Positions 28,664-44,600 of a stretch of DNA of 64,000 nt are shown here, piece by piece. Each line of letters starts with the position of its first letter. The first letter of the stretch is position 1. Under the pieces are notes generated by a model. The model worked only from the letters and a program-made list of their open reading frames with translations, made no database searches and was not told the DNA's origin. The translations under genes and the position numbers were made by a program. This DNA comes from Thermogutta terrifontis (GTDB lineage: Bacteria; Planctomycetota; Planctomycetia; Pirellulales; Thermoguttaceae), in assembly GCF_002277955.1 (NCBI RefSeq), contig NZ_CP018477.1, positions 3,679,206 through 3,743,205 on the forward strand, read 5' to 3'.

Positions 28664-29710
28664 ATGGTGTGTTCCCGGCCAGGGGATGGCCCTCGGTTTT
28701 TCGCCGTGTCACGGTGGTTTTGTCTCGGGAGTGCGATTACCCTTTTGACGCTTCTTGGTTTAAACGACGCATCCGGCCAGGTTCCCGCCGGCGGTGCAGG
28801 ACAGTCCGCTATTCCTCCACGAGGCAACGAGGGTTATGTTCCGCCCGCCGCTGCGCAGGCGCCAGCCGTGCCGAATCCGAGCCAGCCAATTACCCCCAAC
28901 GACGCGCAATCGACCAATGCCCTGCTACCGCCTCCGTTCACATTAACTCCCTACGAGCAAGAGCAACTTGATCGGGTGCTCCGCGCGTGGGAAGAAAGAA
29001 GTTCCCGCATCAAGACGTTCGAATGCGAATTCACGCGGTGGGAATTTGACCCCGTGTGGGGACCGCCCAATCAGCCGAAGCGCATCACGCGCGGCAGAAT
29101 CCTGTATTCGGCACCGGACAAAGGGCTATTTCGGGTGGACGAAGAGGTTGTGGAAAACCGCTGGCAACCCGCGGCGCATCCTGAGCGCTGGGTGTGCGAT
29201 GGTCGCGCCGTGTATGAATACCGATTTGAGACCAAGCAGATTGTGGAAACCCCGCTTCCCCCCGAACTTCAGGGGAAGGCAATCACCGAGGGACCTCTGC
29301 CATTTCTGTTTGGTGCGGAAGCCGAATCCCTCAAGCGACGTTACTACATGAGGATCATCACTCCTCAAAATGTGAAGGATGAAATCTGGCTGGAGGCGTT
29401 TCCCCGGTATCAGCGGGAGGCGGCCAATTTTCAGAGGGCGCAGCTTATTTTAAAGCTGCCTGCACTGGATATTTATGCCCTTCAGCTTTACCACCCCAGT
29501 GCCCAACCCAACACGCAGTCCCGGACCGTATTCCAGTTTGATCGCATCAAAGTGAATGCCTTCGACCCGCTACGGATTTTCAAAGAGGATCCATTCAGGC
29601 CGATTTTGCCCGATCCGTCCTGGGCGAAGGTGACAGAACCGGCATCGGCCTCACCCTCTGGCACTCCGCCGCACCTGGGCCAGCAACCTCAGGCGATCCG
29701 TCCCCAGTAA
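28664..29710 (+). CDS. TIGR03009-like planctomycete exported protein
   Basis: 348 residues. A hydrophobic signal region (about 17-38, ending LNDASGQ) and a Pro/Ala/Gln-rich linker (about 40-95). The globular domain starts at LTPYEQEQLDRVLRAWEERSSRIKTFECEFTRWEFD. It matches what I know of TIGR03009, a domain found in multiple copies in planctomycete genomes, with a LolA/outer-membrane-carrier-like beta fold (FTRGRILYSAPDKGLFRV, WVCDGRAVYEYRFETKQI). The role is unknown; lipoprotein or lipid carriage is only a structural analogy. AGGAG lies ~8 bases before the ATG. Confidence 0.8.
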   Translation: MVCSRPGDGPRFFAVSRWFCLGSAITLLTLLGLNDASGQVPAGGAGQSAIPPRGNEGYVPPAAAQAPAVPNPSQPITPNDAQSTNALLPPPFTLTPYEQEQLDRVLRAWEERSSRIKTFECEFTRWEFDPVWGPPNQPKRITRGRILYSAPDKGLFRVDEEVVENRWQPAAHPERWVCDGRAVYEYRFETKQIVETPLPPELQGKAITEGPLPFLFGAEAESLKRRYYMRIITPQNVKDEIWLEAFPRYQREAANFQRAQLILKLPALDIYALQLYHPSAQPNTQSRTVFQFDRIKVNAFDPLRIFKEDPFRPILPDPSWAKVTEPASASPSGTPPHLGQQPQAIRPQ

Positions 29711-30040
29711 ACTCAAGCAATTTGCCTCCCACACAACAGCACTGGCGACCTTACCTCGTAAATGACTCGAAGAAGTCTGGTAATGCGACCACCAAGCGAC
29801 GGGCACCTCTCTCACCACCTTCTGTGCCTCCTCAGGTAGTCTGATCAAGGTGACGAGTAACCTGGTCCCCGAGGTCTCGATGAGGCTTTCGGTGGATAGC
29901 GAAGTGCCGATCTTCGGGCACAGGGGACGTAGCGTGGGCCACGTTGGAAAAGGAATTATCTTCGGATCTGCGTGTTCAGCCAAAGAAACTTTGCCGGTTC
30001 TGCGTGAGTTCGGATTTTCAATCGACTCTCGTAACTTCAC
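29651..30040 (-). CDS. Doubtful small protein downstream of candidate RNA
   Basis: 129-codon frame with GTG start at 30040, read away from the candidate structured RNA, whose U tract ends 25 bases upstream. The N-terminal ~110 residues have an ordinary protein composition (AEHADPKIIPFPTWPTLRPL; TRLLVTLIRLPEEAQKVV), but there is no Shine-Dalgarno. Its end overlaps the tail of the gene on the other strand by 60 bases. No domain recognised. It may be a chance frame. Confidence 0.25.
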   Translation of the reverse strand: MKLRESIENPNSRRTGKVSLAEHADPKIIPFPTWPTLRPLCPKIGTSLSTESLIETSGTRLLVTLIRLPEEAQKVVREVPVAWWSHYQTSSSHLRGKVASAVVWEANCLSLLGTDRLRLLAQVRRSARG

Positions 30041-30064
30041 ATGACGATTGACCGTCTATAGGAT

Positions 30065-30202
30065 AAAAAAAGCCGCGCTCGGTCATTGGCTGGAGCAGGT
30101 CGGGGCCTCCAATTCCCCATCAGGCAACCAATCCGTGACCCATGTGGGGTATCGGGTGACACACATGGGCGCGCAGCACCTGTCCGAATGACCGAGCGCG
30201 GC
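30065..30202 (-). ncRNA. Candidate structured RNA with three-way junction and U7 tail
   Basis: A perfect 16-bp inverted repeat (30072-30087 with 30187-30202, sequence AATGACCGAGCGCGGC) encloses 99 bases that can fold further. A second stem is GGA-bulge-CAGGT (30092-30100) with ACCTGTCC (30178-30185). Hairpins are GGGG/CCCC (30102-30105/30115-30118) and CCCATGTG/CACATGGG (30139-30146/30162-30169). On the minus strand the last stem runs straight into seven U (30065-30071), like an intrinsic terminator. I could not match it to 6S, SRP, tmRNA or RNase P RNA. It could instead be a small inverted-repeat element. Confidence 0.5.
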
Positions 30203-30413
30203 CAGGATTCCGTTCCACCCACCGGCCGAGCGGGCCGCCATCCTTGAACTGCTCATTCGTCCGTGAACGCGTCGGCGGCCGTACGGAATCACGACGGTTC
30301 GCCGATCTTCCCCTGTCGTCCTTGCGTTATTTCGCTGCTTCCCTTTCCCCCCCCGTCTCAGACCTACCTTCCTCCCAAATTCTTGGACTCTTCAGGCCAA
30401 TGCCCGCCGGGAA
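30203..30413. other. Spacer between mraZ-like gene and candidate RNA
   Basis: GC-rich, with no gene. A GGCCCGCTCGGCC stretch near 30222-30238 partly resembles the neighbouring closing stem of the candidate RNA. No convincing promoter for the RNA was found. Confidence 0.3.
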
Positions 30414-30896
30414 CTACTGGGCCAGGCTTTCGTACAATCTGGCAAATCTCGGCATGGCCTTTTCCAGGTATTTCTTCCAATGTTCGGGATGCCAAATTTC
30501 GACGCAAACAGCCGCTCCCACCACCATCACTTCACCGCCGGCTTCAACGGCAAGAAACTCCCTGAAACCTTCCGGGATGACGATCCGACCGCGTTGTGCA
30601 ACGGGAACAGTTCGGAAGCGGCTGGAGAGGAGCCGCCCAAAACGCTGCACATCGGAAAGCCGCGTGTCCAGCCTTCCCATTTGGACTTTTTGTCGGATCA
30701 GCTCCACGCCGGCTTCCCAACGCGTTCGCCAGTTTTGTTGGCTCCATAAACTCAGACAACCTCGCCTCTCCTTGACCAGAACACACTCTTTCGCGTCGGG
30801 AGCCAGTAAGTCCATCAATTCGTTGGGAATGGAGAGCCGATATCGCTCGTCCAGAGCACGCACATATTCCCCGAGGATTAAGGGAGTTTGCGACAT
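30414..30896 (-). CDS. MraZ-like transcriptional regulator
   Basis: 160 residues with two SpoVT-AbrB-type half domains, as in MraZ: ILGEYVRALDERYRLSIPNELMDLL (about 7-31) and TVPVAQRGRIVIPEGFREFLAV (about 96-117). MraZ usually heads the division/cell-wall cluster and represses it by binding GTGGG-type repeats. Here it stands alone with no rsmH, ftsI or mur genes. A single GTGGG lies upstream, near 30958-30962 on the minus strand. The start ATG is at 30896. It may have a role other than dcw control. Confidence 0.82.
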   Translation of the reverse strand: MSQTPLILGEYVRALDERYRLSIPNELMDLLAPDAKECVLVKERRGCLSLWSQQNWRTRWEAGVELIRQKVQMGRLDTRLSDVQRFGRLLSSRFRTVPVAQRGRIVIPEGFREFLAVEAGGEVMVVGAAVCVEIWHPEHWKKYLEKAMPRFARLYESLAQ

Positions 30897-31577: not shown

Positions 31578-31647
31578 TAGAAAGATGAGCCCAGTTCGTT
31601 GGCCAGCCGTCTTGGGCTCGAACCAGCAAAAAAGGAGAACAAAAGTC

Positions 31648-32562
31648 ATGCGATTGGCGAAGCGCTTGTTCCTGGCGAGTGTGTGCTGTGTCGTGCTAGC
31701 ACTGAACTCGCCCGCACAGGTCTTACGGAATCTGGGGCCGAGAGACAAAGGTCAGCCTGTGCCCCAAAATGAACCAACCCCAGCGGTGCCCCAACGGCCA
31801 AAGAGACTTCCGTTTCCTTTACCTCAGGTGGTAAAGCCTGCTCCCACGACGGAAGAGACAAAAGCGCATCAGCCAGGCCCGGGTTCCGCACAAACCCCAG
31901 AAGGCAATGGAAAGAGGGACGTGGGACGAGGCATGGTCATTGCCCGCCCCACCCGGGTGATCATCGTTAACGACGGCAACCAGGTGGCGGTTCAGGCCTC
32001 GCAACAGATCGAGGAAATGCTCCGACCTGCGATCGAGGAATTGAGCAGGGGAGGCAAGATTACCAAAGCCGACGCAGCACGGAAGTTGAATGGGGATAAT
32101 CGGCTCATACGAGGGCCGCGTGCTCCCCAGGGAGTTCAGGAGGATGATACGCACAAATTGGCGGAGATGCTTGCCAAGTGGCTGGAAAAGTATCCCGTCC
32201 GGACCTTGGGAATCGTCGTCACTGTACCCACTGAGAAGAACAAGCCACCCGCGTGTCCACCGCCCGGCTGCGGCTGCACCCAGGAGCCGGGTATTTCGAT
32301 GTCGTGCGACTGTGGACTTTCGCGAGGCTGGTGCTTCTGCCTGTTCTGCATGTACTATCCGCTTCCCGATCCAACTCCCCGCATGTCCGACGGTGCAGAG
32401 CCATCCGGGCCACGGAATGTGGACCTGATCGTGATCGTTCGCACCCCGGAGACGTCTTCCGCAGTTCTTCAGCATCTGTGGAACTCTGGCCAAGAAGAGT
32501 TGCGAACAATAAGTCCGACCGCTTCATCCCTCGTGATCAAAACTAAGAGCTGTCCTCCGTGA
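31648..32562 (+). CDS. Exported Cys-rich protein, function unknown
   Basis: 304 residues from the ATG at 31648 (AAAGGAG 11 bases upstream). Clear signal peptide (MRLAKRLFLASVCCVVLALN, cleavage near SPAQ). A Pro/Gln-rich linker follows to about 95, then an alpha/beta-looking region (MVIARPTRVIIVNDGNQVAV; EEMLRPAIEELSRGGKITKADAARKL). Next comes a cluster of eight Cys at 203, 208, 210, 220, 222, 229, 231 and 234, including CPPPGCGC and CDC, suggesting disulfides or metal binding outside the cell. No family recognised. It ends ahead of a strong terminator. Confidence 0.7.
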   Translation: MRLAKRLFLASVCCVVLALNSPAQVLRNLGPRDKGQPVPQNEPTPAVPQRPKRLPFPLPQVVKPAPTTEETKAHQPGPGSAQTPEGNGKRDVGRGMVIARPTRVIIVNDGNQVAVQASQQIEEMLRPAIEELSRGGKITKADAARKLNGDNRLIRGPRAPQGVQEDDTHKLAEMLAKWLEKYPVRTLGIVVTVPTEKNKPPACPPPGCGCTQEPGISMSCDCGLSRGWCFCLFCMYYPLPDPTPRMSDGAEPSGPRNVDLIVIVRTPETSSAVLQHLWNSGQEELRTISPTASSLVIKTKSCPP

Positions 32563-41628: not shown

Positions 41629-44600
41629 ATGGCAGTTCCGGCCCAACGTCGCCTTGAAGTGAAAGAAGTCCGTCATTTTGGTAGCCGCCGATATGATTTC
41701 CCGATTCCGGACCTCACTCAAATTCAAACCAAGGCATATGAGAGGTTTCTTCAGGCCGATGTACCGTGGAATAAGCGGAAAAACGAGGGGTTGGAGGCTC
41801 TTCTCCGCGAAACGTTCCCCATTGAGAACCTCGACAAATCTCTGCGCCTGGAATATATCCGGTACGAGTTGGGCAAGCCTCGGTACACTCCGGAGGAGTG
41901 CAAACAGCTTCGTCTGACTTACGGACGGCCGTTCCGTGTCTGGTTGCGGCTGAACAAGGAGCAGCCGGTTGAGGAAGAGGTCTTCCTCGGTGAAATTCCG
42001 ATTATGTTGGGCGGTGGGGAGTTCATCATCAACGGTGCTGAACGGGTCGTTGTCAGTCAGCTCCACCGCAGTCCGGGAATGGACTTCATTGAGGACAAGG
42101 AAGGTGACCGGAAGGTTTATAGCTGTCGCATCATCCCGGAACGGGGAAGCTGGATCGAGATCATCCTCACCAAGCGGGATACACTGGCTGTCCGAATCGA
42201 CCAGAGCAACAAGTTCCCGGTGATGACGCTGCTTCGGGCCATGGATCCGAAGTTCAGCCAGAATTCGGATATCATTCGGGCGTTTTACGGTGATGTGATC
42301 AAGGAAGAAAAGATCGCCTCGCGGGCTTCCGCGTCAAAAATCAAGGACAAAGTTGCGGTAGAGGATATCGTCTATCCACCCGAGAGCCCGAACGCCGGTG
42401 AAATCATTGTCGAATGTGGCCAGGTCATTACGGAAAGCGCGGCCGAGCAAATATGCACCTCCGGATTGAAAAGCGTCTGGGTGATGCCCAACGATCGAAA
42501 TCGCTTGATTCTCGATTCGTTGGCCGAAGACCCGACAGCCAGCCACGAAGAGGCACTGCTTCGGATTTATCAGAAGCTTCGGCCGGGGAATCCCCCGCAA
42601 TTGGAGCGGGCCCGAACGCTGTTCTATGAGCGATTCCGGGATCCCAGCCGGTATCGACTGGGCCGGGTGGCACGCTTCCGAATCAACCGCAAGCTGGGGC
42701 TCAATGTCCCCGAAGATGAAATGGCCCTGCGAGCGGAAGACCTGATTGCAGCCATCAAGTATCTGGCGAGACTTCGTGCCGGAGATCCTACGGCGGAACC
42801 CGACGACATCGACCATCTCGGTAATCGCCGGGTGCGCACAATTGACGAACTGGCGTGCGAGGAGCTGCGAAAAGGCTTTTTGAAGCTCCGGCGGACGGTC
42901 TCCGACCGAATGAATTACAGCGACGTGGCCGACATGACGCCACGGAGTCTCATCAATCCGAAAAGTGTGTCCGCGGCTATCGAGTATTTCTTCGGACGCG
43001 GGGAGCTTTCTCAGGTGGTTGACCAGACCAACCCGCTGTCCATGCTGACGCATGAGCGGCGTTTGTCTGCCCTGGGGCCGGGCGGTCTGAACCGCAAGCG
43101 CGCCGGTTTCGAGGTCCGCGACGTGCACGCCTCGCACTATGGGCGAATGTGCCCCATCGAAACCCCGGAAGGTACCAACATCGGCCTGATTTCCAGTCTG
43201 GCGATTTACGCCAGCCTTGACGAATACGGATTTTTGATCACGCCGTACCAAGTTGTGAAAAATGGCGTCCTGCAGGACGAGATCCGCTGGCTCCGTGCCG
43301 ATGAGGAGTTCGACAGCTATCTGGCGCCCGCAGATGCCCCCGTGAAGGATGGCAAGATTCAGGGTGACACCATCGTCGCCCGCCACCGCGGGGACTTCAA
43401 GTTGGTCCCCGTTTCGAAGATCCAGTACATGGATGTTTCCCCGGCCCAAATCGTGGGTGTTTCCGCGGGCTTGATCCCCTTCCTGGAACATGACGACGCC
43501 AACCGCGCGTTAATGGGATCCAACATGCAGCGGCAGGCTGTGCCGCTTCTGGTCACTGAGCCGCCTCTCGTCGCTACCGGATTGGAAGGAAAAGTTGCCG
43601 AAAACTCCAGTCTGGTAGTTCGGGCGAAACGCGACGGGACCGTCACCTACGTGGACGCTAACCGAATTGTGATTGATGACACAGATGTCTATTTACTGGA
43701 AAAGTTTGTGGGCCTGACAGAGAAAACCTGTCAGAATCAAAAGCCCATTGTGAGGGTGGGTGACAAGGTCAAAAAAGGGCAGATCATTGCCGACGGAGCT
43801 GCTACGTGCCAGGGTGAACTCGCCCTTGGGCGAAATGTCCTTGCTGCTTTCATGTCCTGGGAAGGGTTCAACTTTGAGGACGCAATCATCATCAGTGAGG
43901 AGCTCGTCCATAACGATGCTTACACCTCGATCCATATCGAGGAGTTCGATGCTGAGATCCGCGAAACCAAACTGGGTCGGGAAGAGTTCACCCGCGATAT
44001 TCCCAACGTGAGCGAGAAGCAGCTTCGCAACCTCGATGAGAATGGAATCGTGCGAGTGGGTACACACGTCAAGCCCGGCGATATTCTGGTGGGTAAAGTA
44101 ACGCCCAAGTCGAAGACCGAGTTAACACCGGAGGAGAAGCTTCTGCGGGCGATTTTCGGTCGCGCAGGTGAGGACGTGAAGAACGACTCTTTGGAGGTCC
44201 CGCCTGGAGTCGAAGGCATCGTTATCCACACCCAAAAGTTTGCACGACGCACAAGCCTCTCCGAGGCGGAGCGGGAGGAATATGATCGGGCTCTTAAGCA
44301 GGCGGAGGCCGAAGGCAATGCTCAAATTGCAGCGGCTTTCACCAAACTGATTGAGGCTTTGGAACAGGCTCTCGGGCAGCGGATCACCGATGATGATGGT
44401 GTGCCGCTTTTGGAAGGCAAAGAGCATCGTTACATTGCGGAACAGGCACAGCGATTCCAGCTTGACCGCTTGGAAATCCGCAGCGCGCAGAAGCGTGCAA
44501 AAGCTGAAAAAATTTATGCGGAATTGTGGCCAGCGGTGGAGGCGGCGATCGATGCTCGGGATCGCAAGGTCAACTCTCTTAAGCGTGGCGATGAGCTCAA

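Follow-up and report, generated by a model that had tools for sequence, protein, structure and literature searches.

A single-copy, covarying RNA family of Pirellulales, commonly located downstream of mraZ, and its tentative connection to CsrA sequestration

Comparative analysis of a structured element encoded in the Thermogutta terrifontis genome revealed a real, single-copy RNA family with covarying stems in the order Pirellulales, to which the element very likely belongs. That the family is both real and new is regarded as very likely, close to certain. An order-wide, single-copy, covarying RNA without a match in Rfam represents a new family to be annotated, whatever its function. The element was studied within a stretch of 64,000 nucleotides (referred to as the window), which is located on one contig of 4,810,751 bases.

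Within the window, the RNA comprises positions 30202-30072 of the minus strand (131 nt; all features given below are on this strand unless stated otherwise), and is closed by a perfect 16-bp stem, P1, followed by seven U residues. The P1 arms (5' strand at 30187-30202, 3' strand at 30072-30087) were obtained from folding and a stem search, with additional support for the 5' strand from covariation in homologues, and are 100% complementary with 99 nt in between. The terminator-like U7 tract was read from the sequence at 30065-30071. Likewise read from the sequence was a second stem of 8 bp, CCCATGTG/CACATGGG (30139-30146 / 30162-30169), corresponding to a hairpin CCCAUGUG/CACAUGGG (30139-30169) that carries the GUCACCCG motif in its loop and represents an alternative to the MFE pairing. 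Furthermore, a motif scan located the CANGGA motif CACGGAUU within the core RNA (30130-30137), and a 3' hairpin UGGGG-AAUUGGAGG-CCCCG with GGA in its 9-nt loop (30099-30117) was matched to helix P5 of the covariance model R3 described below. The minus-strand MFE amounts to -72.2 kcal/mol (z -4.36), and none of 200 dinucleotide shuffles was equally stable; the plus-strand fold of the element reached z -3.62. A sequence-only reading made prior to this analysis had proposed that the minus strand encodes a structured RNA of no known class. Its closing stem, 8-bp stem and terminal U7 all held, and the proposed two internal hairpins in a three-way junction held in part, since the MFE and centroid structures disagree and the interior fold is not unique. 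A terminator scan restricted to loops of 3-8 nt gave no terminator at the element. As a separate observation, a promoter-like site, TTCACA-17-TAGGAT, lies on the opposite (plus) strand at 30036-30064, adjoining the U tract.

A blast search of the own genome returned a single full match, the next best being 17 nt long (E 0.25). The interpretation as a mobile inverted-repeat element was rejected based on this single full copy and on the presence of only one match in each genome matched by the models R1 and R2; repeated copies, which would have refuted the RNA interpretation, were thus not found.

Directly upstream of the RNA, the mraZ gene was identified (30414-30896, PF02381, E 2.6e-18), ending 211 nt before the RNA on the same strand. 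The earlier statement that the surrounding 500 bases hold no supported gene therefore failed: the reading had missed mraZ as well as a conserved block at 30203-30350, which contains most of the CsrA-type motifs in Thermogutta. This CANGGANG-rich block of 148 nt is a conserved part of the Thermogutta mraZ 3' region and is 90.5% identical to the sister genome G087, compared with 93.9% for the RNA, 90.9% for mraZ and 60.9% for positions 30350-30413. Between the terrifontis/G087 type and the genomes G086/G088, two-sided changes were observed at P1 pairs 5, 8 and 11. For the two long neighbouring frames on the plus strand (28664-29710 and 31585-32562), Pfam gave no match. It had also been suggested that the element is a leader or attenuator of a 129-codon frame (29651-30040). 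In favor of this explanation, the element ends 25 nt before the frame with a stem plus U7. Against it, the frame shows only 62.3% identity to G087 with 11 gapped positions, and a convergent DUF1844 gene lies downstream at 36 of 71 loci of relatives. The frame is not conserved and is unsupported as a gene, and the leader explanation is considered very unlikely.

A blastn search of 119 genomes of the same taxonomic family returned one full relative (G087, 88%) besides short matches, and further relatives were therefore located by walking downstream of mraZ, which was found in 94 of the 119 genomes. At many of 30 fetched mraZ loci, a stem of similar span was present just downstream on the same strand, enclosing GUCACCC and UGCAAGUC. 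Model R1, seeded with six of these mraZ-downstream sequences, matched 28/119 genomes of the taxonomic family at one place each. From 44 R1 matches, 25 were retained in alignment A5, weaker and reverse-strand ones being left out, and the resulting model R2 showed two-sided changes at 29 of 33 pairs. Within the order, R2 in turn gave matches in 90 of 396 genomes, again at one place each and across ten families. Alignment A8 omits locus L063, which coincides with L143, as well as a match of L070 on the reverse strand.

In the alignment of 71 RNAs to R2, two-sided changes were found at all 33 pairs (0/500 shuffles), with P1 covarying at 15/15 pairs, and 91.3% of cells were paired compared with 72.7% after shuffling and 25.9-46.9% in slid controls. 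This alignment was fitted to the model and hence leans towards the structure; when 33 sequences were aligned by MAFFT without fitting to the model, P1 also covaried (13 of 14 predicted pairs). The checks proposed with the earlier reading, namely covariance-model searches and compensatory changes, thus yielded planctomycete homologues with models R1-R3 and covarying stems, and its central claim of an unclassified, single-copy structured RNA held. The most conserved stretches are GUCAC (62/71 RNAs), represented in the window by the core motif GUGUGUCACCCGAU at 30151-30164, and TGCAAGTC, also given as UGCAAGUC (47/71). Thermoguttaceae RNAs (e.g., L069-L074) were observed to have a near-invariant P1 sequence, CCGGUCCGG/CCGGACCGG, beyond the needs of pairing. 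A kissing interaction UCCGUG/CACGGA between the P3 and P5 loops is striking in some RNAs and was rejected as unsupported: own pairs scored 11.97 compared with 11.87 for swapped ones (739/2000 as high), and 11.40 compared with 11.15 (522/2000).

Across the class, model R3 gave matches in 45 of 397 genomes, of which 44 belong to the order. The sole match outside the order (G591) follows mraZ in the same orientation at a distance of 236 nt. Ten loci were also retrieved for additional or weaker R3 matches, and each of them contains mraZ. A core-pattern search returned 20 contigs, all titled planctomycete, including Lacipirellula limnantheis and Aeoliella straminimaris, and the exact GGCAYGGAWGCC hairpin is carried by a Lacipirellula RNA. 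In several genomes missed by R3 (genera g55 and g69, family f16), a hairpin GGCAUGGAUGCC and a closing stem were seen by eye downstream of mraZ; these were not scored.

The window copy itself is very likely a divergent member of the family. A targeted R3 search of 47 kb, run without filters, scored it with 31.4 bits (E 3.8e-5) on the correct strand and 19.7 on the opposite strand, and R2 scored it with 23.3 bits; a default-filter search of the window and genome-wide or unguided searches did not report it. Its membership is accordingly based on position, strand and size, on P1 with the U tract, and on the GUCACCCG motif together with the score from the targeted search. Rfam searches at gathering and permissive thresholds provided no relevant match for the RNA. 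In a partial search of the literature on Planctomycetes, mraZ, CsrA, and small or structured RNAs, no title or abstract was found that describes it.

Linkage to mraZ is a prominent property of the family: of 73 distinct RNAs (L063 and L143 counted as one place), 66 have mraZ upstream in the same orientation, at a distance of 6-431 nt. These counts include eight seeded cases, namely the six R1 seeds and the loci L038 and L041, which were picked for their mraZ neighbour. A run of at least four T residues follows P1 within 20 nt in 55 of the 73 RNAs. Upstream of the RNA, no general sigma70 promoter was found, the mean best score being 3.83 compared with 4.45 for shuffled sequences (72 rows, which include both L063 and L143 from one place; the matrices are approximations). 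The usual state of the RNA is likely that of a tail of the mraZ transcript, an inference made without expression data. At L164-L166 (f16, g69), a separate GC-rich hairpin and a long T run were seen by eye further downstream, so that P1 and terminator appear to have parted there. The planctomycete hosts of the RNA are reported to divide without FtsZ, and the link to the RNA gives mraZ a new context in such bacteria.

Seven RNAs lack an adjacent mraZ as judged by tblastn; one of these loci, L084, shows an apparent C-terminal mraZ remnant by eye. The RNA is retained without adjacent mraZ in genomes of g31, in G003, G172 and G180, and in the g34 genomes G067 and G068, for which no mraZ match was obtained. 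Neighbours at such loci are pdxJ (L075, and by eye also L080), DUF1844 with pyrG, or greA. In genus g34, R3 matched two of ten genomes searched, and both matches contain the core and have AMMECR1 on one side and a divergent L25 gene on the other. Promoter-like scores at the seven loci without mraZ were 2.4, 3.0, 6.9, 7.8, 7.8, 8.0 and 12.3, i.e., five of the seven have stronger promoter-like sites, and the 64 mraZ-linked loci scored lower (mean 3.5; Mann-Whitney p 0.006; 71 distinct loci). Both the link of the RNA to mraZ and INDEPENDENCE from mraZ are seen across loci. Since the RNA is kept in lineages without adjacent mraZ, it appears to be more than the terminator of this gene, and its outliving of mraZ favors a role in trans.

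These results bear on a possible rival explanation, in which the element is a cis-acting mraZ 3' UTR, i.e., a stable terminator or stability element, perhaps also a CsrA target controlling mraZ, without any role in trans. This explanation is supported by the position of mraZ, which in most cases directly precedes the RNA in the same orientation and comes as close as 6 nt, by the missing upstream promoter signal of mraZ-linked RNAs and by the frequent U tract. Against it, core-bearing RNAs are kept beside pdxJ, DUF1844/pyrG, greA and AMMECR1 where mraZ is not adjacent, several of the loci without mraZ have the better promoter-like sites, and a conserved interior of 120 nt would be superfluous for a terminator.

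Regarding function, motifs of the CsrA type are enriched in the family. High-affinity RsmE ligands present an ANGGAN hexaloop, and the SELEX consensus is RUACARGGAUGU (PMC7652899). GGA was the most enriched trinucleotide in the 71 RNAs (253 compared with 159 in dinucleotide shuffles), at a mean of 3.6 per RNA (range 0-7), and the 3' hairpin reads GGC-AYGGAW-GCC in many members. CANGGANG occurred 39 times compared with 3.2 in shuffles, and 6 times compared with 0.5 in 12 non-redundant RNAs (0/200 shuffles). In the flanks, CANGGANG was not enriched upstream (3 vs. 2.1) and hardly downstream (4 vs. 1.7); plain GGA was somewhat enriched upstream as well (178 vs. 140). An exact ANGGAN hexaloop closed by at least 3 bp was present in 30/71 RNAs, with 1.5 expected and a shuffle maximum of 6, compared with 0/71 reverse complements, 4/70 upstream and 1/69 downstream control sequences. 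The looser test, GGA in any loop of 5-8 nt, gave only a weak signal (64/71 vs. 53.9, maximum 63). As the sequences are related, z-scores of the motifs are overstated.

Among Thermoguttaceae core RNAs, the exact hexaloop was found in only 4 of 25 (0.63 in shuffles), and the 131-nt window RNA contains none; its two hexaloops are located in the upstream block. A motif and hairpin scan identified them as GGA-ACGGAA-UCC with a 3-bp stem (30205-30216) and CGUUC-ACGGAC-GAAUG with a 5-bp stem (30254-30269), the latter being a predicted CsrA/RsmE-type site. Copies of CANGGANG in this block lie at 30317-30324, 30258-30265 and 30239-30246. From the mraZ stop to the end of the RNA, the 342 nt in Thermogutta thus hold 14 GGA, three CANGGANG and two hexaloop hairpins, and this mraZ 3' region ranked first of 12,732 windows of 342 nt in a CsrA-motif scan of both strands of the 64 kb. 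In four related Thermogutta genomes, CANGGANG occurred 13 times (0.94 in shuffles) and hexaloops 11 times (0.71), values not reached in 300 shuffles. Elsewhere in the window, 42031-42412 on the plus strand is the second densest type of CsrA-motif stretch, with two CANGGANG, four CANGGA and 14 GGA in 342 nt.

CsrA is encoded in all 119 genomes of the taxonomic family, often in several copies (1 to 16 matches per genome; four in the own genome), and such multi-copy CsrA is unusual. Three of the own-genome CsrA proteins retain L4 and R44, as counted by eye; both residues are named in PMC7652899. CsrA itself is widespread among bacteria, with RNA antagonists mainly in Gammaproteobacteria and the protein FliW in others, and whether any species uses FliW and sRNAs in cooperation is undetermined (PMC7652899). 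FliW was found in 12/119 family genomes and was not found in the own genome by the same search. Since CsrA is universal and FliW rare, the restraint of CsrA in most of these genomes remains open; universal CsrA also precludes a comparison of co-loss. Furthermore, 10 of the 12 FliW genomes also carry the RNA, so that it is no simple replacement for FliW.

CsrA sequestration is proposed as the best single mechanism, although the case for it is evenly balanced and it is inferred without binding or expression data. According to this model, the RNA would normally be produced as the 3'-terminal part of the mraZ transcript, ended by its own P1 and U tract, and would be released from the mraZ mRNA; its GGA hairpins would then bind and sequester CsrA dimers, making the RNA a functional analogue of CsrB/RsmZ through titration of CsrA. 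Transcription, release, CsrA binding and titration are all inferred from sequence alone. The RNA is a concrete candidate CsrA antagonist for genomes without FliW. A counterpoint is that the most conserved core stretches are no CsrA motifs; it is possible that the core serves as a scaffold, makes another contact or binds a second partner.

It is also possible that the RNA acts in trans with a different partner, such as RNA polymerase in the manner of 6S RNA, a ribosome-related target or an unknown protein, the GGA loops being incidental or secondary. GUCACCC and UGCAAGUC, the most conserved motifs, have no role in CsrA binding, and 6S RNA has been reported missing in T. terrifontis, P. staleyi and R. 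baltica (PMC5673643), both of which fit this alternative. Moreover, the 9-mer AUGCAAGUC, present in 30/71 RNAs, has a second occurrence in the own 16S rRNA, close to its 5' end. Against it, no Rfam 6S match to the RNA was obtained at any listed E-value, in agreement with the earlier verdict that the element is not 6S, which held in Rfam scans (no RF00013 match); the best 6S hit in the own genome reached 12.5 bits at another place, below the cut-off. The 16S similarity is weak compared with shuffles (k=9: 8/300; k=8: 57/300; window positions 30030-30240 minus tested), which often reach it, and 16S rRNA mimicry via AUGCAAGUC was rejected. Neither a 6S-like nor a 16S reading explains the excess of hexaloops.

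Returning to CsrA sequestration, a bolder version is conceivable, towards which we remain slightly skeptical: the RNA may be the planctomycetes' own, independently evolved CsrA sponge, placed at the 3' end of the mraZ mRNA, retained throughout Pirellulales as well as by one or more genomes of the class that fall outside this order, able to turn into a gene of its own once mraZ disappears and coexisting with FliW where the latter is present. If this holds true, genomes with FliW possess an RNA antagonist of CsrA alongside the protein one.

Among known systems, the Rhodopirellula-1 motif (Weinberg et al. 2010, PMC2864571) is likewise listed for Planctomycetes; it differs in that Proteobacteria are listed too, and the relevant passage of PMC2864571 gives no Rfam accession. 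Identity with this motif remains possible, as the sequences were not compared. 6S RNA (RF00013) shares the closing stem, size class and single copy, but the RNA family has no Rfam match to it and its interior holds separate hairpins. FliW would likewise restrain CsrA, although as a protein and not as an RNA. The RNA family resembles CsrB/CsrC and RsmX/Y/Z of Gammaproteobacteria in possessing multiple GGA motifs, often located in hairpin loops, in ending with a stem and U tract and in occurring in genomes that encode CsrA, and it shares exact ANGGAN hexaloops with RsmE ligands (PMC7652899). In contrast to CsrB/RsmZ, it occurs in another phylum without an Rfam match to any CsrA-RNA family, and most members have fewer GGA motifs, CsrB containing more of them. 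Moreover, it is linked to mraZ rather than free-standing, and possesses a strongly conserved P1 of 15-16 bp together with the GUCACCC/UGCAAGUC core.
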